Shown in pieces: positions 29,108-37,242 of a DNA stretch of 43,936 nucleotides; within the stretch, counting starts at the first letter, position 1, and every line of letters starts with the position of its first letter. The notes beneath the pieces were generated by a model. The model worked only from the letters and a program-made list of their open reading frames with translations. It did not search any database and was not told the origin of the DNA. The stretch is from Anaerolineales bacterium (GTDB taxonomy: Bacteria > Chloroflexota > Anaerolineae > Anaerolineales > Villigracilaceae). The DNA lies in the NCBI GenBank assembly GCA_020060625.1, contig JAGUZU010000154.1, positions 1 through 43,936 of the forward strand, in the 5' to 3' direction. Both the position numbers and the translations under genes were made by a program.

Positions 29108-29193
29108 TGTCATTGCGAGGAGCGCTCTTTGCGACGAAGCAATCCCCAGTTATCAGGAGATTGCTTCGCTCCTTGCAGTCGCTCGCAATGACA
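29108..29193. repeat. TGTCATTGCGAG inverted repeat spanning the hemY 3' end
   Basis: TGTCATTGCGAG (29108-29119) is mirrored by CTCGCAATGACA (29182-29193), an exact 12-bp inverted pair, with GAAGCAATC/GATTGCTTC as inner arms. About half of it is translated as the last 13-14 codons of hemY (MSLRATARSEAIS); the rest fills the gap before hemL. Confidence 0.8.
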
Positions 29194-30631
29194 TTGAGTT
29201 TAGAATCTTTTCAATCGCCAATTCCCCCGAATGAATGCAGTCAGGGATGCCAATGCCGCGATAACCGTTGCCAGCCAGCGCAAGGGTTGGATATTTTTCT
29301 AAACCCGCGTCGATTTGTTCGAGAATTTCGGGATGACCGAGGTTGTATTGCGGCATGGCTTTGTCCCACAGGAAGACACGTGAGACGAGCGGCTCGGCGG
29401 TGATGCCAAGAGTCAACTCCAATTCTTTCTTTGCAACTTCAAGCAATTCGCCCTCACCCCCAGCCCCTCTCCCATTGGGCGAGGGGAGTTCCTGCCCAGC
29501 TCGCCCAACGAACACACGAATCAACGCATAGCCTTCGGGTGCGCGGTGCGGAAATTTGGTGGAAGTCCACGTGCAAGCGAGGGCTTTGCGTCCTTCGCGG
29601 CGCGGGATGACGTAACCGTAGCCGTCCAACTCGTGGGGGATGTCGCTCAGGCGGTAGGCGAGGGAGACGGTGGCGGTTGAGGCGTAGGGAATGCTCTGAA
29701 GGGTGGAACCAAGCTCGGGGGCGAAAGAGGCGAGCAGAGTCCCGCTCACATAGGCAGGCGTGGCGAGAATCAGTGAATCGGTTTCAAGTGTTTCAGTGTC
29801 AAGTGTCACGTTCCAGGCTCCACGTTTCAAGTTTCGGGTTATGGAAGTGACGCGGGTGTTAAGTCGCAAACTTGCACCCTTCAACCTTAAACTTTCAACC
29901 AATGCTTCAACAATTTCGGCAAGCCCCGTAGTGGGTGTGAGAAACGCGGAGCGCGAACCTTGAACTTTGCCATTGGATTGTTTGCGCATTTTTAGCGCGC
30001 TGCGCGCGAGACTTCCATGCTTTAGTTCGAGGTCGCGCAGATAGGGGAATGTGGATGCGAGACTGAGTTGATCGCCATCGCCCGCGTAGATGCCAGACAT
30101 GAGCGGCTCGATGAGATTTTCATACGCCTCACGCCCAAGCCGACGACTGACAAACGAGCCGAGAGATTCATCACCGCCTGCCCCAGTTTTTTCGGGGTTG
30201 ATGCGATGCGGTGGAAGGAGGAAGTCGAGCCCCATGCGTGTTTTGCCAAACCATGAAATGAGACGCGAACGCAGAATGGACGGAACATCCGAGGGAATCA
30301 TCATGGCGAGACCATCGGGCAATGGAAGCAATCGCCCTTTGTTGAGAACGTAGGTGTTCTTCTTGTTTTGGTTCGTGCCGTGCAAGCGCTTGTCAAGACC
30401 GAGTTCCTTGCACAACGCCACACCCCAGGGTTTGGATGCAAGAAAGGTGTCGGGTCCGCCTTCGATAATGAAGTGACCGCCGTCGAAGGGGACGCGGTGT
30501 GTGGTGATCTTGCCGCCCCAGCGAGATTCGGATTCGAGGAGGGTGATTTGATCGTATTTCGTGTTGCGTATTGCGTAATAGGCGGCTGATAATCCCGCGA
30601 TGCCGCCGCCGATGATGACAAGACGATTCAT
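29153..30631 (-). CDS. hemY: HemY-type protoporphyrinogen/coproporphyrinogen III oxidase (CgoX)
   Basis: The 492-aa flavoenzyme has an N-terminal FAD-binding motif (LVIIGGGIAGLSAAYYA), ESRWGGKITTHR, FIIEGGPDTFLASKPWG, and a C-terminal FAD motif (LALAGNGYRGIGIPDCIHSG). In the coproporphyrin-dependent route set by chdC and hemH nearby, it would oxidise coproporphyrinogen III to coproporphyrin III using oxygen. The ATG at 30631 overlaps the hemH stop (ATGA). Three parts are repeat-derived: about residues 382-394 (ELPSPNGRGAGGEGE, a CCCTCACCCC element), a tandem-repeat stretch near WNVTLDTETLETD, and the C-terminal 13 residues. Confidence 0.93.
   Translation of the reverse strand: MNRLVIIGGGIAGLSAAYYAIRNTKYDQITLLESESRWGGKITTHRVPFDGGHFIIEGGPDTFLASKPWGVALCKELGLDKRLHGTNQNKKNTYVLNKGRLLPLPDGLAMMIPSDVPSILRSRLISWFGKTRMGLDFLLPPHRINPEKTGAGGDESLGSFVSRRLGREAYENLIEPLMSGIYAGDGDQLSLASTFPYLRDLELKHGSLARSALKMRKQSNGKVQGSRSAFLTPTTGLAEIVEALVESLRLKGASLRLNTRVTSITRNLKRGAWNVTLDTETLETDSLILATPAYVSGTLLASFAPELGSTLQSIPYASTATVSLAYRLSDIPHELDGYGYVIPRREGRKALACTWTSTKFPHRAPEGYALIRVFVGRAGQELPSPNGRGAGGEGELLEVAKKELELTLGITAEPLVSRVFLWDKAMPQYNLGHPEILEQIDAGLEKYPTLALAGNGYRGIGIPDCIHSGELAIEKILNSMSLRATARSEAIS
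29451..29488 (-). repeat. CCCTCACCCC palindromic element inside hemY
   Basis: CCCTCACCCCCAGCCCCTCT followed by CCCATTGGGCGAGGGGAG is a short member of the family seen between genes at 11281 and 22685. It is translated in frame as ELPSPNGRGAGGEG, between the conserved VFVGRAG and LLEVAKKELE segments. Confidence 0.8.
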
Positions 30632-31542
30632 AACCAGCCTGCCTCCTTTGCCTTTTCGCGGATCAAGTTTGCCAGCCCTGCGATCATCCATGGCGCGGTG
30701 TTGAGCATTTCGATGCGTTCGAGATGAATGCCGAGTGACTTGGCAAGCTTTTGATAAACGATGTCAATGTCATACAGAATTTCAACATGCTCGAAGACGA
30801 ACCCGATCGGGCAGAGCAGGATATGTTTTTTGCCTTCCGCCACAAGGCGTTCGATCACTTCGCCCGCGTCGGGTCCGAGCCAGGGGATGGTGGAAATGGC
30901 GGCAGATTGATAGGCAAATTCATGTGGTTGGGAGCCGAGTTTTTCCATCACCGCCGAAACGGTTTCACGCAACTGCGCGGGATATGGATCATCCCATTCC
31001 AGAATCTTCTCAGGCAGGCTGTGCGCGGTGAAGATGACGGGAACGTCCGCGCGGATTTCTTCAGGGAAGCGTTGAAGCGCATCATGTACGCGACTAGCAA
31101 GCGCGTTGACATACCCTGTTTCCAAATGCCAATTCTCAATACATGAAAACGCAATTGGCGAATTGGCTTCTTCGATTTTCTTGATGTATGCCTCAATGCT
31201 CATGCGTGAATAATGCGGCGCCATCACCACGCCCACCATCTTCTCAATTCCTTCCGCCTGCATCTCTGCCAGCGCATCCTTGATGAAGGGATGCCAGTGA
31301 CGCATCCCCACGAAGGCTTTGAATTGATTGCCGTTGACGTTCAAGGCGGATTCGAGCGCATCCGCCTGCGCCTGAGTTTGTTCCAAAATGGGGGAACGCC
31401 CACCGATCTCGCGGTAGCGTTCACGCACTTCACGGATGATTTCCTGCGAAGTGGGACGATAGCCGCGCACATCCAAGAGGTATGGCTCGACCTCATCCAA
31501 ATTGTTCGGTCCGCCGTATGCCATTACCAATAATCCGATCAT
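30628..31542 (-). CDS. hemH: Ferrochelatase (coproporphyrin-type, CpfC/HemH)
   Basis: The 304-aa soluble ferrochelatase inserts Fe2+ into the porphyrin ring. It has MAYGGP at the start, GMRHWHPFIKDAL, catalytic H174 in IFTAHSLPEK, and the acidic partner in GFVFEHVEILYDID. No [2Fe-2S] cysteine tail is present, which fits Gram-positive-type enzymes that use coproporphyrin III and hand coproheme to ChdC. The ATG at 31542 overlaps the DUF4491 stop by ATGA, and the gene overlaps hemY in the same way. Confidence 0.95.
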   Translation of the reverse strand: MIGLLVMAYGGPNNLDEVEPYLLDVRGYRPTSQEIIREVRERYREIGGRSPILEQTQAQADALESALNVNGNQFKAFVGMRHWHPFIKDALAEMQAEGIEKMVGVVMAPHYSRMSIEAYIKKIEEANSPIAFSCIENWHLETGYVNALASRVHDALQRFPEEIRADVPVIFTAHSLPEKILEWDDPYPAQLRETVSAVMEKLGSQPHEFAYQSAAISTIPWLGPDAGEVIERLVAEGKKHILLCPIGFVFEHVEILYDIDIVYQKLAKSLGIHLERIEMLNTAPWMIAGLANLIREKAKEAGWL

Positions 31543-31877
31543 AGATGGGGAGCCTTCCATTTCCTGATGATTTCTTCAAAGGGCGGTTTGATCTTGCGCG
31601 AAGCGGGGTTGAATGGAAACCAGCCCAACTCCGCACGGACAGCCTGCTCCTTAAGTTCAGTCGAGCCCCAGACGAAGGTTGCACCCAGTACGCCAACGAC
31701 AACAGACAACCAATCCGATGAAATGAAGAGGGAGGCAAACACGATGAGGAAACCCAGACCCATCATGTAGGGCCACCACAGGTAGCCCAAGTATCTTTCG
31801 CCGCGGATGACGAGCGGGAAGCCAAGTCCGATGATGAGCAGGGTGACGAGTCCGATGAGGATGCCGAAAAGATTCAT
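31539..31877 (-). CDS. DUF4491-family membrane protein (copy 1) in haem operon
   Basis: The 112-aa protein has an N-terminal helix (ILIGLVTLLIIGLGFPLVI), two further hydrophobic stretches, and the DUF4491 tail pattern FVWGSTELKEQAVRAELGWF followed by PFNP. The family's function is unknown. It overlaps hemH by ATGA, so it is translated with it. No Shine-Dalgarno sequence precedes its ATG. The upstream gap holds a tandem octamer repeat. A related protein lies immediately upstream (32014-32388). A role in haem or porphyrin handling at the membrane is inferred from context. Confidence 0.8.
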   Translation of the reverse strand: MNLFGILIGLVTLLIIGLGFPLVIRGERYLGYLWWPYMMGLGFLIVFASLFISSDWLSVVVGVLGATFVWGSTELKEQAVRAELGWFPFNPASRKIKPPFEEIIRKWKAPHL

Positions 31878-31926
31878 GGTAATCAGTGTTCAGTGATACG
31901 TGGTGTGTGTTGCGTGTTCCGTTGTT

Positions 31927-32019
31927 TACCTGTCTACATATGTACTTGTGTACTTGTGTACCTGTGTACCTGTGTACTTGTGTACCTGTGTACTTGTCTA
32001 CTTATGTACCTGCCTACGT
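31927..32019. repeat. Tandem octamer repeat TGTACYTG between the DUF4491 genes
   Basis: The unit TGTACTTG or TGTACCTG is repeated about seven times without interruption (31941 on), followed by degenerate copies. It sits in the middle of the haem operon, between two small membrane-protein genes; plus-strand open frames over it (VLVYLCTC peptides) are artefacts of the repeat. Copy number could vary between strains. Confidence 0.85.
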
Positions 32020-32388
32020 TTCGAGAGGCTCACGTTTCAGCAAGTCCTGGGTTGTGGCGTGCAGGCTGGGGTCTGCCAGAAAACGCGCATGACGCGGGTT
32101 GTTTGGATTGGCGGGAGCATGTCCATGCCTGACGCGGTTTTGCTGCCGCGTGAATTCAAGCGCGTCCCAGAGGAAGGTGATTCCGAGGATGCCGAAGAAA
32201 GTGGAAAGTGGAAAGTGGAAAGTGATCAGTGAGCAGTATTCGGCAATCAGTCCAAGAATGGCAAAGATGATCGTTGGGAGCCATATTGTTGGCGAGATGG
32301 ATTCGATCTTGCGGACGGCGGCATGACCAAACCAGATGCTGAGGAATGCAGTGACGGCGGCGATGAGACCGAGAGGATTGATGGTCAT
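32014..32388 (-). CDS. DUF4491-like membrane protein (copy 2) in haem operon
   Basis: The 124-aa protein resembles its neighbour: an N-terminal TM helix (INPLGLIAAVTAFLSIWFGH), then ILGITFLWDALEFTRQQNRV with RHGHAPANPNNPRH in place of GWFPFNP. It overlaps hemE by ATGA. The segment EYCSLITFHFPLSTFFG is encoded by a GGAAAGT tandem repeat plus CAGTGAGCAG-type sequence (about 32196-32245), so part of the middle helix region is repeat-derived. The last residues (KREPLET) also run into repeat-like DNA. Function unknown. Confidence 0.7.
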   Translation of the reverse strand: MTINPLGLIAAVTAFLSIWFGHAAVRKIESISPTIWLPTIIFAILGLIAEYCSLITFHFPLSTFFGILGITFLWDALEFTRQQNRVRHGHAPANPNNPRHARFLADPSLHATTQDLLKREPLET

Positions 32389-33443
32389 GTTTGCGCCCTC
32401 ACCCCAACCCTCTCCCGAGGGGAGAGGGAGAATTCATGCACCATATCCACGACGGCTTTTACGTTGTCCACGGGCGTGTGTTGCAGGATGCCGTGTCCGA
32501 GATTAAAGATGTGACCAGGTCTGCCATTGGCGCGGCGCAACACATCGTGGACGCGCGCTTTGAGTTCAGGGAGAGGCGCGAAGAGCGTGATGGGGTCAAG
32601 ATTCCCTTGCGCAGCGACATCGTCCCCGAGCAGCGACCATCCGTCGTCAAGCGGGATGCGCCAGTCGAGCCCGATCACATCGCCGCCCGCGCGTTTCATC
32701 AACGGCAGGAGCGTCGTCGTGTTCGTTCCAAAATGGATGACAGGCACGTTCATCGCCTGCGCGGCTTTGAGCAACTTTTGCGAGTATGGCAGTACAAAGG
32801 TTTCGTAATCCGATGGACTGAGCGCGCCGACCCATGAATCAAAAACCTGCACTGCCTGCGCGCCTGCGCGGATCTGCGCGGTCAGGTAATCGCTGAACAC
32901 ATCGGCGAGTTTATCCATCAGAGCATGAAAAACGTCGGGCGCGGAATACATCATCGTTTTGGTTTTTAGAAACTCACGCGACGACCCGCCTTCGATGATG
33001 TAGGATGCGACGGTGAACGGCGCGCCGCAAAAGCCGATAAGCGGAGTCTCGCTCAATTCCTTGCGCAGGATGCGGATCGCCTCCATGACATAGCCCAAAT
33101 CTGATTCTGCTTCGACGGGTTTCAACGCCCTGACGTCTTCCATCGTGCGGACGGGATTCTGCAAGACGGGACCTTCACCTTTCGCAAACTCCAAGCCCAC
33201 GCCAAGCGGAATGGCGGGGAGCAGAATATCGGCGAAGAGAATCGCCGCATCCACACCAAACGCGCGGACAGGTTGAAGCGTCACTTCGGCGGCGAGCTCG
33301 GGCTGGTAACAGATTTCGAGCAGCGAATACTTCTCGCGAATGGCGCGGTATTCGGGCATGTAACGTCCCGCCTGGCGCATGAACCAGACGGGAGTTGTGT
33401 CAACAGGTTTGCGCTGGCAGGCTTGTAAAAAACGGCTGTTCAT
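32385..33443 (-). CDS. hemE: Uroporphyrinogen decarboxylase
   Basis: The 352-aa enzyme decarboxylates uroporphyrinogen III to coproporphyrinogen III. It shows the signature PVWFMRQAGRYMPEY near residue 20, ILFADILLPAIPLG, GFCGAPFTVASYIIEGG and GHGILQHTPVDNV. The ATG at 33443 overlaps the hemQ stop (ATGA); two codons further upstream is also possible. The natural C-terminus probably ended near VVDMVHEF, and the last about 13 residues (SLSPRERVGVRAQT) are encoded by a CCCTCACCCC repeat. The stop overlaps the next gene. Confidence 0.97.
   Translation of the reverse strand: MNSRFLQACQRKPVDTTPVWFMRQAGRYMPEYRAIREKYSLLEICYQPELAAEVTLQPVRAFGVDAAILFADILLPAIPLGVGLEFAKGEGPVLQNPVRTMEDVRALKPVEAESDLGYVMEAIRILRKELSETPLIGFCGAPFTVASYIIEGGSSREFLKTKTMMYSAPDVFHALMDKLADVFSDYLTAQIRAGAQAVQVFDSWVGALSPSDYETFVLPYSQKLLKAAQAMNVPVIHFGTNTTTLLPLMKRAGGDVIGLDWRIPLDDGWSLLGDDVAAQGNLDPITLFAPLPELKARVHDVLRRANGRPGHIFNLGHGILQHTPVDNVKAVVDMVHEFSLSPRERVGVRAQT
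32396..32429 (-). repeat. CCCTCACCCC palindromic element at the hemE 3' end
   Basis: CCCTCACCCCAACCCTCTCC is followed by CGAGGGGAGAGGGA, a short family member forming a hairpin. It provides the last codons of hemE and stops a few bases before the DUF4491-like start. Confidence 0.8.
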
Positions 33444-34135
33444 TTCCATAGGGCAAGTGTCTCTTCGGCGGGGTGATAGATGGCGGTGTGCAAGGGAGTG
33501 TCGCGCAGGGTGTAACGGCGCGCTTCGGTGTCGCGTAGTTCATTGACCAAATCAGAAAAGCGGGTCAGGTCATCGGTTTCGTACACTACGACAAATTCCT
33601 GATTCTGCAAACCAAAAGAATAAAGAAGCAATTGGCTGATGTCTTCGTATTGCTTTCCAATGCGGATGTGTTCGTTCATCATGCCCTGACGCGCATCACG
33701 GCTCATCAAATACCATTCGGTCGTTTTGGAGAAGGGATAGATGACGAGATAGGTTCTATGTTCATCGGAGAACGGATCAATCTCCTGCTTCGAGCGCGCC
33801 TTCGAATATTGCGACGGACGCGTGAAGCCCCAGAGCGAATCCTTTTGTTCGATCAAGTGACGATAGGGAGTCAATGCCTTCGTGAATTTCTCAAAGAAGA
33901 CAGCGGTGTCTCGATTGTCGTTGACGGTCAAGGCAGACCAGACGATCAAGTCCACGTCATGTTCAGTTCCCTGGAACAAATCCACTTTCTGAGTGGCGGC
34001 GCGTAATGCAGTCAGCCAATTCTCATGAAAATCCGCACGTTCGTCCGCGCCCAGGGACCAATAAGCATCCTTGAAGGAAAACAAAGCGTAATGGTTGAAC
34101 GTGCGCAGGGATTGTTCGGTTGTGTCTGTGGTCAT
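33440..34135 (-). CDS. hemQ: Coproheme decarboxylase (HemQ/ChdC, chlorite dismutase family)
   Basis: The 231-aa protein matches HemQ: SLWGFTRPSQYS, the putative catalytic tyrosine Y133 in VIYPFSK, WYLMSRDARQGMMNEHIRIG with the proximal haem ligand H156, and LYSFGLQNQEFVVVYETDD. It decarboxylates two propionates of coproheme III to vinyls, using peroxide, giving haem b. GGAG lies five bases before the ATG, and the stop overlaps hemE by ATGA. Its presence, with no hemF or hemN in the cluster, defines the coproporphyrin-dependent route. Confidence 0.95.
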   Translation of the reverse strand: MTTDTTEQSLRTFNHYALFSFKDAYWSLGADERADFHENWLTALRAATQKVDLFQGTEHDVDLIVWSALTVNDNRDTAVFFEKFTKALTPYRHLIEQKDSLWGFTRPSQYSKARSKQEIDPFSDEHRTYLVIYPFSKTTEWYLMSRDARQGMMNEHIRIGKQYEDISQLLLYSFGLQNQEFVVVYETDDLTRFSDLVNELRDTEARRYTLRDTPLHTAIYHPAEETLALWK

Positions 34136-34148
34136 TTATTCTCCATAC

Positions 34149-34181
34149 AGACCCTAAAGGTTTTGAAAACCTTTAGGGTCT
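34149..34181. repeat. Perfect 33-bp palindrome at the 3' end of the radical SAM gene
   Basis: AGACCCTAAAGGTTTT (34149-34164) and AAAACCTTTAGGGTCT (34166-34181) are exact reverse complements around one base. It encodes the last nine residues of the radical SAM protein (RDPKGFQNL) and its stop codon. It could act as a processing or attenuation hairpin before hemQ; there is no T-tract. Confidence 0.85.
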
Positions 34182-35323
34182 CTCCCCTGTGGAACATATA
34201 AACAAGCGGAGTCTGTTTCGAGATAATCACCCGTCACACCATAGGCGCGCCCGCGCTGACCGCCGCACACGTCGCGGTATTCACAGACGTGACAGCGTCC
34301 TTTGAGTTTGTCGGGGTCGCGCAGATCGGTGAATAGTTGCGAGTGACGATACACCTCCACCACATCGTCCGTGCGGACATCCCCCGCCGTGATCGGCAAA
34401 AATCCAGACGGCTGAATCTCGCCGATGTGCGAGATGAACAGAAAGCCGTTGCCGTCATTGACACCGCGCGTTGGGCGGTTCAGACCGTCAGCGTATTGAA
34501 AGCCAGCCCCTTGAAACGTGACAGGCGTCCCTGAGCCTTGCTCCGCGCGTTTGCGTTCAATGGCGACGCGGCGGTACATCGGCGCGGCGGTGGCTTTGAT
34601 GTCGAACGGCGCGGTCTTCGAGAGGTCATACAGCCAGTGGAAAATGCGTTCGTGCTCTTCCGCCGAGATCATCTTCTCCGCTAACGCGCGTCCCGTAGGG
34701 ACGAGGAAAAACACCGACCACTGCACCGCGCCCACTTCCTGAATGAACGGTACCATTTCATGCAGTCGTTCATGGTTGTGCTTGGAGACAGTAGTGTTGA
34801 CCTGCACGCTCAAGCCCGCGGCGTGGGCGTTGCGCAGAATATCCATCGTGCGCTGCCATGAGCCTTCCACCTGCCTGAACGCATCGTGCGCCGCGGTGTC
34901 AGGCGCATCGAGACTCAAGGCAATGCGGCGAATGCCCGCCTTATGCGCTTTTTTGAGCCGTTCGATGGTTGGCAATGCCGTCGCGGTGGGAGTCAACGAA
35001 CAGCGCAATCCCTTTTGCGTGGCGTGAGCGATCAACTCGAACAGGTCACGGCGCATCATCGGGTCGCCGCCTGTGAACACGAGAATCGGCGAGCCAAAAT
35101 CTGCGAGGCGGTCAATCAATTTCTTCGCTTCATCTGTGTTGAGTTCACGCGGGTCGCGCGCGTGCTGGGCATCTGCGCGGCAATGGACGCAGGCAAAGGC
35201 GCAGGCGCGCGTCACCTCCCAGGCGATGGTGAAGGGCGCGAGATTGAAATCGGCGTGGGTCATGCGTTCATTGTGCAGTGACCGCTCGGCGGCGGCGCGC
35301 TCGCTAAGGTTTTGTAATGTCAT
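34154..35323 (-). CDS. Radical SAM/SPASM protein, AhbD/NirJ-like, haem-cluster associated
   Basis: The 389-aa enzyme has the radical SAM cluster motif C41-x3-C45-x2-C48 (TRACAFACVHCRAD), the SAM-binding GGDP motif (LVFTGGDPMMRRDL), and a C-terminal SPASM-type cysteine set (GRCHVCEYRDVCGGQRGRAY ... SAC) for auxiliary iron-sulphur clusters. AhbD and NirJ act on haem precursors; AhbD oxidatively decarboxylates coproheme to haem b without oxygen. Lying directly before hemQ (18-bp gap), this protein may be an anaerobic alternative for the same step, or act in haem d1-like or peptide modification. AAGGAG lies six bases before the ATG. Its C-terminus comes from a palindrome. Confidence 0.85.
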   Translation of the reverse strand: MTLQNLSERAAAERSLHNERMTHADFNLAPFTIAWEVTRACAFACVHCRADAQHARDPRELNTDEAKKLIDRLADFGSPILVFTGGDPMMRRDLFELIAHATQKGLRCSLTPTATALPTIERLKKAHKAGIRRIALSLDAPDTAAHDAFRQVEGSWQRTMDILRNAHAAGLSVQVNTTVSKHNHERLHEMVPFIQEVGAVQWSVFFLVPTGRALAEKMISAEEHERIFHWLYDLSKTAPFDIKATAAPMYRRVAIERKRAEQGSGTPVTFQGAGFQYADGLNRPTRGVNDGNGFLFISHIGEIQPSGFLPITAGDVRTDDVVEVYRHSQLFTDLRDPDKLKGRCHVCEYRDVCGGQRGRAYGVTGDYLETDSACLYVPQGRDPKGFQNL

Positions 35324-35338
35324 TGGATCTCCTTCGAT

Positions 35339-35402
35339 TCGTGTTACGTGTTGCGTGGTGCGTCTTGCGTTCGATAAAACGGAACACGCTCTACGCTACA
35401 CG
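35339..35402. repeat. Degenerate tandem repeat (CGTGTTGCGT type) between hemB and radical SAM gene
   Basis: GTGTTACGTG, TTGCGTGGTG and CGTCTTGCGT occur as near-tandem variants, followed by ACGCTCTACGCTACACG in the opposite sense. It fills most of the 72-bp gap and supplies the last codons of hemB. Confidence 0.55.
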
Positions 35403-36442
35403 GTTTTCATCCAATTTGCCGCGTCCACGGCGTGATAGGTAATGATGACATCCGCGCCCGCGCGTTTGATGGACGTGAGCGTTTCGAGCGTGACCTTTGC
35501 TTCATCCACCCAGCCGTTCGCGGCGGCGGCTTTGATCATCGAATACTCGCCGCTGACGTTGTATGCCGCCATCGGCAGTTCGGGGAAGGCGTCCTTCACG
35601 ACGCGGATCACATCGAGATATGCCAGCGCGGGCTTGACCATCAACATGTCCGCGCCTTCATCCACATCCAGCGCGGCTTCACGCAAGGCTTCGCGCACAT
35701 TAGCAGGGTCCATCTGATGAGATTTTCTATCGCCGAACTTTGGCGCACCCTCCGCCGCATCGCGGAACGGTCCGTAGAATGATGATGCATATTTCACCGC
35801 ATACGACAGGATCGGCAGGTTCTCATACCCCGCTCCATCCAACCCTGTGCGGATCGCCGCGACCATGCCATCCATCATGCCGCTCGGCGCAACAATATCT
35901 GCACCGCATTCGGCGTGCGAGATTGCCACCTTCGCCAACACATCCAGCGTCGGGTCGTTCAGCACATACCCCTCAGGCAAGCCCGCATGAAAATGTTCAC
36001 CCGTATTCAAAATTCCGCAGTGTCCATGATCGGTGTACTCGCACAAACACACATCAGTAACAACAACCATCTCAGGGATTTCCTTCTTGATGGCGCGAAT
36101 CGCCTGCTGGACAATTCCATCTTCCGCGAAATTCTCCAGCCCAATCGGATCCTTCTCTTTTGGAATTCCAAACAGGATGACAGCGCTCACCCCTGACTTT
36201 GCGGCTGATTCTGTTTCCCGAACCGCTTCCGCCACTGACAGTTGATACACGCCAGGCATCGAGCCGATGGCAGTTCGCCCCGTCCCATGCCGCACGAAGA
36301 GCGGATAAATGAAATCGCGCGCGTTGAGTTCGGTCTCGCGAATCATCGCACGGATGGCGGGGTTGGCACGTAATCTGCGCGGACGGACCAATTTACGATT
36401 TAAGATTAACGATTGACGATTTTCAAGTTCAATCAGAGTCAT
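35396..36442 (-). CDS. hemB: Delta-aminolevulinic acid dehydratase (porphobilinogen synthase)
   Basis: The 348-aa enzyme condenses two 5-aminolevulinates to porphobilinogen. The metal site cysteines are C132, C134 and C142 ([13 protein letters not shown]), indicating a zinc enzyme. K217 ([18 protein letters not shown]) and K270 ([13 protein letters not shown]) are the Schiff-base lysines. The start overlaps the hemD stop by ATGA. The first about 18 residues ([15 protein letters not shown]) are encoded by an AATCGT-type tandem repeat and precede the normal family start ([12 protein letters not shown]). Confidence 0.97.
36388..36428 (-). repeat. AATCGT-type tandem repeat encoding the HemB N-terminus
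   Basis: On the minus strand AATCGTCAATCGTTAATCTT is followed by AAATCGTAAATTGG: a hexamer/heptamer motif repeated four times. It is translated as [12 protein letters not shown] at the start of hemB. Confidence 0.6.
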
Positions 36443-37242
36443 AATTTCTCCGTATGCGTGATGGCTTCGATCAAGCCTTCGGTTGTGTATTCTTTTGCAA
36501 CAACAAGTTTGACCAACCCTTCCTCTTTTGCAGCTTGTTCGGTAATGGGACCAATGCAGGCGAATAAAGGATTGTTTGGAAGGTTCAAAGGATCGAGTCC
36601 GTTTTGTTTGCAGATGGCAACGAAATTTTGGACAGTGGATGGGCTGGTCAGGGTCACAACATCCACAACTGATTTCAACGTGGCGATTCCTTCGGGGTCA
36701 GGTTTTGTGGGCAAGGTTTTATAAACAGCAATTTCATGTGCGATTCCGCCAGCATCCGCAATCGCTTCAGGCAATGCTTTGCGTGCGATCTCAGCGCGTG
36801 GGAGCAAAACCCACTTTCCCTGCAAATTTCCCAGCCCAGGCAGGATGGCTTCGGCAACATATTCTTCAGGGACAAAATCAGGTTCGATGCTGTATTTGCG
36901 TAATGCCTCGGCGGTTTTTGGTCCAATGGCGGCAACGCGAATACCCTCACCCTGCCCTCTCCCAAAGGGAGAGGGGAAGCGCTCGCGCGAAGAGTCCACC
37001 TCTCCCCGCGGGAGAGGGATTAGGGGTGAGGGAGAACACACAACGTCCACGGCATTGACCGATGTGAATACCACCCACTCATAACAATTCAATTTCTCAA
37101 GCGCACGTTCTAATGCGATGTTTTTCTCAATCGGCTGGATTTCGATGACAGGGAAGAAGATCGGCTTGAAGCCTGCGGAACGCAGTTTCGTTGCAAAGTC
37201 ATCGGCTTGGGCGCGGGGGCGGGTGATTAAGATACGTGTCAT
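36439..37242 (-). CDS. hemD: Uroporphyrinogen-III synthase with repeat-encoded insertion
   Basis: The 267-aa enzyme closes hydroxymethylbilane to uroporphyrinogen III. The family pattern is visible as [44 protein letters not shown] and [15 protein letters not shown]. Residues about 69-101 (starting [15 protein letters not shown]) are not part of the family; they are the translation of two back-to-back CCCTCACCCC elements, lying in the loop between the FTSVNAV helix and VAAIG. The frame is kept, so the enzyme may still fold with this loop extended. It overlaps hemB by ATGA and follows hemC by 30 bp. Confidence 0.93.
36944..37033 (-). repeat. Double CCCTCACCCC palindromic element inside hemD
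   Basis: CCCTCACCCTGCCCTCTCCC with AAAGGGAGAGGGGA is followed by CACCTCTCCCCGCGGGAGAG and GGATTAGGGGTGAGGGA. The whole 90-bp unit has the layout of the intergenic copies at 11281-11376 and 22685-22759, and its length is a multiple of three. It is translated in frame. Confidence 0.9.

Follow-up and report, generated by a model that had tools for sequence, protein, structure and literature searches.

A TIGR04053-family radical SAM protein next to HemQ in an Anaerolineales haem operon, a predicted oxygen-independent coproheme decarboxylase

Past uroporphyrinogen III, the coproporphyrin and siroheme routes to haem are described as sharing only their last step, the one that starts from coproheme (PMC8305020, PMC7242693). 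For the coproporphyrin route a 2020 review gives AhbD or HemQ as the final enzyme (PMC7242693), and a 2023 review, citing Bali 2011 and Dailey 2015, mentions ahbD beside hemY/hemH/hemQ or beside ahbA/B/C (PMC10548856). AhbD of Methanosarcina barkeri is reported to abstract beta hydrogens and to remove two CO2 stepwise via a monovinyl intermediate; electron transfer via the porphyrin iron and a ligand near the metal have been proposed for it (PMC11306076). In Haloferax volcanii, where ahbD lies near nirK, norB and blue copper genes, deletion of ahbD impairs anaerobic growth only, deletion of pitA, the HemQ homologue, impairs aerobic growth only, and haem restores both (PMC5746218). AhbD as an end of the coproporphyrin route, ahbD genes near hemY, hemH and hemQ, and the presence of two routes in one Haloferax cell are already known. 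TIGR04053, on which the present analysis bears, is an NCBIfam family without a named function; our literature search found no assignment of it to the coproheme step, an earlier mention in the 2015 and 2017 Dailey papers being possible. With the same possible exception, the search found neither TIGR04053 genes without HemQ in coproporphyrin-type operons nor their Crp-type neighbourhood in Bacilli.

The window, i.e. the whole stretch of DNA analysed, has 43,936 nucleotides and comes from an Anaerolineales genome of 3.67 Mb that is 98% complete. It contains an intact open reading frame of 389 amino acids at 34154-35323 on the minus strand, encoding a radical SAM protein (hereafter rSAM), in a haem operon read entirely from this strand in the order hemA-hemC-hemD-hemB-rSAM-hemQ-hemE-two DUF4491 genes-hemH-hemY-hemL:

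34154..35323, minus strand: TIGR04053-family radical SAM/SPASM protein, predicted oxygen-independent coproheme decarboxylase (AhbD-type); from NCBIfam, relatives' contexts and tree
35180..35203, minus strand: codons of the radical SAM cluster motif CX3CX2C (C41-C48); from sequence and residue positions
34202..34294, minus strand: codons of the C-terminal auxiliary-cluster motif CX2CX5CX20C (C344-C374); from sequence and residue positions
33440..34135, minus strand: HemQ/ChdC-family gene, predicted peroxide-dependent coproheme decarboxylase; Chlor_dismutase 145.9 bits, best solved match a coproheme decarboxylase
32385..33449, minus strand: hemE, uroporphyrinogen decarboxylase; TIGR01464 444.1 bits, cut-off 302.95
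30628..31560, minus strand: hemH, ferrochelatase nearest to coproporphyrin ferrochelatases; TIGR00109 249.5 bits, best solved match Listeria-type CpfC
29153..30691, minus strand: hemY, porphyrinogen oxidase (CgoX/PgoX type); TIGR00562 291.4 bits, cut-off 97.85
35396..36442, minus strand: hemB, porphobilinogen synthase; NF006762 490.3 bits, cut-off 297
36439..37242, minus strand: hemD, uroporphyrinogen-III synthase; PF02602 195.4 bits
37273..38193, minus strand: hemC, hydroxymethylbilane synthase; TIGR00212 345.2 bits
38216..39616, minus strand: hemA, glutamyl-tRNA reductase; TIGR01035 412.3 bits
27812..29113, minus strand: hemL, glutamate-1-semialdehyde aminomutase; TIGR00713 631.3 bits
31539-31877 and 32014-32388, minus strand: two DUF4491 genes; DUF4491 94.8 and 68.1 bits

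NCBIfam thus recognises eight haem genes around rSAM (hemA, hemB, hemC, hemD, hemE, hemH, hemL and hemY), in agreement with the haem operon announced in a preliminary description of this DNA. That description also placed an AhbD/NirJ-like SPASM protein directly upstream of hemQ: the position stands, rSAM preceding hemQ by 18 nt, whereas NCBIfam puts the protein in TIGR04053 and not in AhbD. Further on, hemQ and hemE overlap by 10 nt.

The rSAM protein scores 451.4 bits on TIGR04053 (cut-off 395) and 374.6 bits on the AhbD equivalog TIGR04545, under its cut-off of 500; it is a member of TIGR04053, a sister family of AhbD, and not an AhbD by curated model. The next NCBIfam scores are those of NirJ2 (261 bits), NirJ1 (169) and AhbC (167), and Pfam Radical_SAM gives 90.5 bits (cut-off 29.5). 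The peptide-maturase models all remain below their cut-offs: PqqE 116 against 381, MftC 121 against 265, GDL maturase 130 against 592 bits. The preliminary description had held a grouping with peptide-maturation SPASM enzymes, together with a lack of the AhbD substrate residues, to be the outcome speaking against an AhbD-like role; with 375 bits for AhbD and 130, 121 and 116 for these maturases, this is not the grouping that we observe, and the context also favours the AhbD side, relatives occupying the AhbD slot of Ahb clusters.

Both cysteine motifs that are described as present in all 39 compared AhbDs, CX3CX2C and the C-terminal CX2CX5CX20-38C (PMC10452713), are found in rSAM, the former as C41, C45 and C48, the latter as CX2CX5CX20C at C344, C347, C353 and C374; NirJ carries the same class of C-terminal auxiliary motif (PMC10548856). 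The full AuxI-type SPASM motif is reported as limited to a subset of AhbDs, and the non-methanogenic archaeal AhbDs, with one exception, as devoid of AuxI cysteines, with conserved Glu and Ser at three sites (PMC10452713). The AuxI cysteines are absent from rSAM too: A246, V288, S306 and Q356 stand at the four columns and the full SPASM motif is missing, so that a single auxiliary cluster is expected for the protein. At the AuxI columns (reference L058), the other 18 TIGR04053 rows of the class have E in 17, S/A in 17 and S in 17; the window clade has A, S and Q in 8/8, with V at the fourth site. A histidine at the TxAPHY position, present in 50 of the 60 other TIGR04053 and AhbD-like rows (AhbC left out), is replaced by Met249 in rSAM and by Met in 8/8 members of the window clade; that this histidine could be the ligand proposed near the metal of AhbD is a guess. 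The predicted structure of rSAM (pLDDT 88.9) retrieved only the SPASM fold, the closest solved folds being SkfB, SuiB, PqqE and a sactipeptide maturase (Z 24-27); no AhbD stands among the matches listed in the sequence and fold searches of solved structures, which is not evidence against AhbD.

As for the partners, the HemQ gene reaches 145.9 bits on Chlor_dismutase (PF06778, cut-off 25), and three of its four best solved matches bear the name coproheme decarboxylase. It stays under the NCBIfam equivalog HemQ_actino (98.5 bits, cut-off 235) and, judged by these scores, is a divergent member of the family. In alignments with solved coproheme decarboxylases, its Tyr133 and His156 face the same residues, at positions that would be those of the catalytic Tyr and the proximal His. 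The window HemH is closer to the Listeria coproporphyrin ferrochelatase (227.6 bits) than to the human ferrochelatase (about 162 bits). Genes for supplying coproheme are present on both sides of the comparison: hemE, hemY and hemH in the operon, AhbA/B and AhbC-type genes beside relatives. HemY had been said to need oxygen or another acceptor; it need not bar an anaerobic route, as CgoX (HemY) of Staphylococcus aureus functions in anaerobic haem synthesis, with an acceptor given there as unidentified (PMC6620371).

The operon contains other features. The DUF4491 genes recur inside the haem runs of loci L048, L049, L054, L056 and L080, and they may be part of haem synthesis or of its membrane coupling. 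Between the two copies of the window, at 31915-32026, octamers close to TGTGTACC are repeated in tandem. At 34149-34181 there is a perfect inverted repeat, with arms of 16 nt and a loop of 1 nt, which runs from the end of the rSAM gene into the gap before hemQ. A stretch of 83 nt around it has a folding energy of -27.4 kcal/mol (z -3.77). The repeat lacks a T run, and among the fetched loci its core turned up only in two copies of the same place. It may adjust the expression of hemQ, or it may be a palindrome of mobile origin. Copies of a palindrome of the CCTCTCCC...GGGAGAGG type are found at 29449-29487 in hemY, at 32394-32430 at the 3' end of hemE and, twice, at 36955-37036 in hemD; compared with three relatives, HemY has 7 additional residues at its palindrome.

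The relatives of rSAM in the class lie in three contexts. In L042, L043, L045-L048, L050, L053, L054 and L057, and also in L078, hemQ is beside the rSAM gene or a few genes off. Haem runs without hemQ are seen in L044, L049 (from the window's own family) and L063, and in L064 with an AhbD-like rSAM. Finally, L058 and L059 are Ahb clusters. The L058 cluster holds siroheme-synthase parts, hemA, hemC, a methylase-HemD fusion, an AhbC-type gene, hemB, the rSAM gene (490 bits on TIGR04545, 406 on TIGR04053), a fused AhbA/B-type gene and hemL; hemE, hemY and hemH were not seen in its 18 kb. L059, a contig of 4.3 kb, holds AhbA/B, rSAM, an AhbC-type protein and hemB; its rSAM, which lies between AhbA/B and AhbC, is 61% identical to that of the window by alignment (62% by tblastn). 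Three AhbC-type neighbours score 539-640 bits (539 in L059, 640 in L058), under the AhbC cut-off of 650. In genomes G048, G060 and G144, neither ferrochelatase nor HemQ nor a HemY over cut-off is present. Among the named loci (the best 80 of 588 relatives), the nearest to the window is that of an Anaerolineales MAG, L078, with the same rSAM-hemQ order and an rSAM 81% identical; nine of these 80 loci have an AhbC match, eight of which are counted, L108 fitting MoaA better. AhbC was not seen in the window genome, whose second-best TIGR04053 match has 98.6 bits, against about 200-235 bits for AhbC-type neighbours elsewhere in the same search.

In a quick tree of 72 sequences with AhbC as outgroup, some rows of which are long-branched, the four AhbC rows group apart from all others (SH-aLRT 100). 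Along this tree the Ahb label changes 7 times (at least 5 by starred branches), the HemQ label 12 times (at least 6) and the HemQ-less label 9 times (at least 7). The smallest starred set around the window, of 8 rows, mixes HemQ and HemQ-less members, and the sets of 10 and 12 rows add Ahb members. Since relatives are found in both types of route, which past uroporphyrinogen III share only coproheme, the decarboxylation of coproheme is the best reading of what rSAM would do; this is our main argument for the function.

We also looked at co-occurrence in 150 genomes of the class, counting as rSAM any TIGR04053 or AhbD-like match and as HemQ all PF06778 matches, among which chlorite dismutases are not told apart. 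TIGR04053 is over cut-off in 31 genomes, and a further 12 show an AhbD-like match (338-356 bits); three of the 12 AhbD-like proteins, when scanned, gave 446-468 bits on AhbD, below its cut-off. PF06778 matches occur in 26 genomes, ferrochelatase over cut-off in 50, HemY in 44 and HemN in a single one; no HemN over cut-off was found in the window genome. The rSAM gene accompanies HemQ in 24/26 genomes against 19/124 of the others, and HemY in 38/44 against 5/106; two HemQ genomes show no full-length rSAM match, namely G037 and G085, the latter with fragments next to its hemQ gene. HemY and ferrochelatase are present in all 26 HemQ genomes. Conversely, rSAM and HemY are found without HemQ in 14 genomes (9 TIGR04053, 5 AhbD-like), 13 of which are at least 92% complete. 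These counts suggest that rSAM, more often than HemQ, is the enzyme kept when the other is lost. Among these 14 genomes a ferrochelatase is found in 5/5 AhbD-like but in 4/9 TIGR04053 ones: G015, G050, G080, G111 and G118 (loci L041, L056, L039, L049 and L055) have HemY and TIGR04053 and are without both HemQ and a ferrochelatase match (PF00762) over cut-off. That these five are all TIGR04053 genomes counts against our reading, and is unexplained if the coproheme made by HemH is the substrate.

The link with oxygen was sought through PF00115: a best E of at most 1e-85, a cut set after seeing the table, was taken as a strong haem-copper oxidase match (83/150 genomes), 20 genomes with weaker matches being counted as without. 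HemQ occurs in 26/83 genomes with such an oxidase and in 0/67 without. Among rSAM genomes, the oxidase is present in 24/24 with HemQ and 9/19 without it, and for TIGR04053 alone in 18/18 and 7/13. As HemQ is thus found only with a haem-copper oxidase (26/26), and 10 of the 19 HemQ-less rSAM genomes have none, HemQ and not rSAM looks to be the optional enzyme. On the other hand, the 9/19 HemQ-less rSAM genomes that have the oxidase make a strict aerobic/anaerobic split fail, and 8 of the 10 rSAM genomes with neither HemQ nor haem-copper oxidase have a bd oxidase match, so that most of them are not plainly oxygen-free. HemY, ferrochelatase and rSAM come together without HemQ or haem-copper match in G016 (TIGR04053) and in G014, G058 and G110 (AhbD-like); G014 has no bd oxidase match either. 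Corrected by the tree, the association of HemQ with the oxidase leaves 6 pairs on starred branches, 3.4 on average going the same way and 0 the opposite way (median p 0.25), which is not significant. The preliminary description had seen in rSAM an oxygen-independent backup suiting a facultative or microaerophilic organism. The oxygen-independent route is supported; the word backup looks inverted, since rSAM is found in 14 HemY genomes without HemQ and 2/26 HemQ genomes lack a full-length rSAM. The facultative lifestyle is consistent with the two strong haem-copper matches and the bd oxidase of the window genome, but HemQ-less rSAM genomes with a haem-copper oxidase blur this picture.

Outside the class, our scan of named species covered the best 80 of 588 confirmed relatives, many of which are Bacillus-group species, Acidobacteria, Planctomycetota and Gemmatimonadales. 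PF06778 is present in 44 of the 49 TIGR04053 genomes searched among these best 80, and absent for L111, L116, L119, L151 and L157. The sample from the order of Neobacillus niacini has TIGR04053 over cut-off in 40/120 genomes, the nitrate reductase gene narG in 20 and both in 13; TIGR04053 is found in 13/20 narG genomes against 27/100 without narG (Fisher p 0.0017, relatedness not corrected). Two copies over cut-off occur in 9 of the 40, which makes a second function possible: TIGR04053 may hold more than one. Some copies of this order lie near molybdopterin oxidoreductase-like matches. The neighbours in L085 include Crp-type regulators, MoaA, ScdA and MoeA. With the closest relatives of the window set aside, 30 of 77 named loci (from the best 80 of 588) have a Crp-type regulator, 16 have ScdA and 11 a HemY at a distance of at most 3 kb; these are raw counts with no null, the queries being drawn from the same loci.

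In the family of Halolamina rubra (Haloferacaceae, according to NCBI also that of H. volcanii) TIGR04053 is over cut-off in 34/60 genomes. We fetched 20 haloarchaeal regions, with Pfam run on the neighbours in six; their TIGR04053 proteins are 42-48% identical to the window rSAM. In L178 and L193 the gene is accompanied by norB and a copper-oxidase-type protein, read as nirK; norB is seen in L186 and L192 and a copper oxidase in L191, whereas the gene of L180 has a HemY-type protein next to it. A TIGR04347-type pseudo-SAM protein (708 bits) adjoins the gene in L183 and a few other regions. The denitrification setting is thus seen in only part of the Haloferacaceae regions. Where TIGR04053 stands with nirK/norB-type genes, as ahbD of H. 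volcanii does, family and synteny link the two, through other haloarchaeal sequences.

From these data we consider it probable that rSAM is an oxygen-independent coproheme decarboxylase working like AhbD, HemQ doing the same step with peroxide. Its chemistry is carried over by analogy from M. barkeri AhbD and would proceed as follows. Fe-coproporphyrin III, delivered by HemE, HemY and HemH, would be bound by rSAM; SAM would be reduced and cleaved at the [4Fe-4S] cluster held by CX3CX2C, and the 5'-deoxyadenosyl radical would abstract a beta hydrogen from the propionate of ring A, then from that of ring B. The release of two CO2 would yield haem b, the leftover electrons passing presumably to the porphyrin iron and the single C-terminal auxiliary cluster. 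Under oxygen, HemQ from the same operon would take over the step with peroxide. We have counted against an AhbD-type function the score below the AhbD cut-off, the three AhbC neighbours under theirs and Met249 in place of the histidine.

Other functions were considered. The enzyme might act at a stage when iron is not yet inserted and stand in for HemN as an oxygen-independent coproporphyrinogen III dehydrogenase, in which case HemY would produce protoporphyrin and a ferrochelatase would finish the pathway. The absence of HemN over cut-off from 149/150 genomes of the class would be accounted for in this way, and so would the five TIGR04053 genomes with HemY but without HemQ and Pfam ferrochelatase. 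However, relatives are found in Ahb clusters, for which no coproporphyrinogen step is known, none of HemQ, ferrochelatase and HemY (over cut-off) is found in G048, G060 and G144, the window HemH is nearest to a coproporphyrin ferrochelatase, and rSAM matches AhbD-type models, with no HemN model among the best 25 of its 56 matches. The Ahb clusters and the type of ferrochelatase lead us to regard this function as unlikely. That rSAM makes or trims another tetrapyrrole like NirJ or AhbC, for example a special haem and not haem b, appears very unlikely: the closest models after AhbD are indeed NirJ2, NirJ1, AhbC and others of this group, and the auxiliary motif is common to NirJ (PMC10548856), but their scores (261, 169 and 167 bits) are to be compared with 375 for AhbD, the AhbC rows form a clade of their own (SH-aLRT 100), and relatives coexist with a distinct AhbC.

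HemQ might also perform the whole step, with rSAM as an accessory, e.g. for finishing stalled monovinyl intermediates or for haem handling. Such a tandem would agree with the joint presence of rSAM and HemQ in 24 genomes of the class and in 44/49 searched elsewhere (among the best 80 of 588); but in the 14 genomes with HemY and rSAM and without HemQ, rSAM must carry the step unless another enzyme does, and we give the accessory role a slim chance. As to a SPASM peptide maturase brought into the operon by chance, it would be in line with the predicted fold, closest to solved SPASM enzymes (Z 24-27) in a list of structures that includes no AhbD; the family scores and the recurrent haem contexts leave it next to no probability, and we rejected it.

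Beyond the window, the decarboxylase function of rSAM might be generalized. TIGR04053 could be the oxygen-independent coproheme decarboxylase of the coproporphyrin pathway across phyla (Chloroflexota, Bacilli, Acidobacteria, Gemmatimonadota and others), an anaerobic HemE-HemY-HemH-rSAM route standing alone without HemQ, and HemQ being gained or retained only by organisms that respire oxygen; we put this forward tentatively, at somewhat less than an even chance. TIGR04053 is a concrete candidate, with a prediction that can be tested in culturable organisms. If true, a widespread family without a named function would gain one, and genome-based claims that the HemQ-type pathway is necessarily aerobic would need care.

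Compared with known systems, NirJ and AhbC belong to the same superfamily branch as the window rSAM, and NirJ shares its auxiliary motif; they differ by the lower scores that rSAM obtains on their models and, for AhbC, by the separate clade. HemQ/ChdC (EC 1.3.98.5) has the same predicted substrate and product as rSAM, but needs peroxide and is structurally unlike AhbD (PMC10965808). With AhbD (TIGR04545, heme b synthase, EC 1.3.98.6; e.g. that of M. barkeri) rSAM shares both cysteine motifs, the SPASM region and the predicted reaction, and its relatives fill the AhbD slot beside AhbC and AhbA/B; it differs by its score (375 bits for a cut-off of 500), by the lack of AuxI cysteines, and by a coproheme predicted to come from the HemY-HemH route and not from siroheme. 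In H. volcanii, AhbD (HVO_2144) and PitA (ChdC) are likewise described as two enzymes for one step, the radical SAM enzyme in anoxic and the HemQ-type one in oxic conditions (PMC5746218), and 2 of the 20 fetched haloarchaeal regions show the matching copper-oxidase/norB setting. There, however, coproheme is thought to derive from siroheme, and HVO_1871 and HVO_2144 are reported to lie apart in the genome (PMC8305020), whereas the window gathers both genes in one coproporphyrin-type operon.
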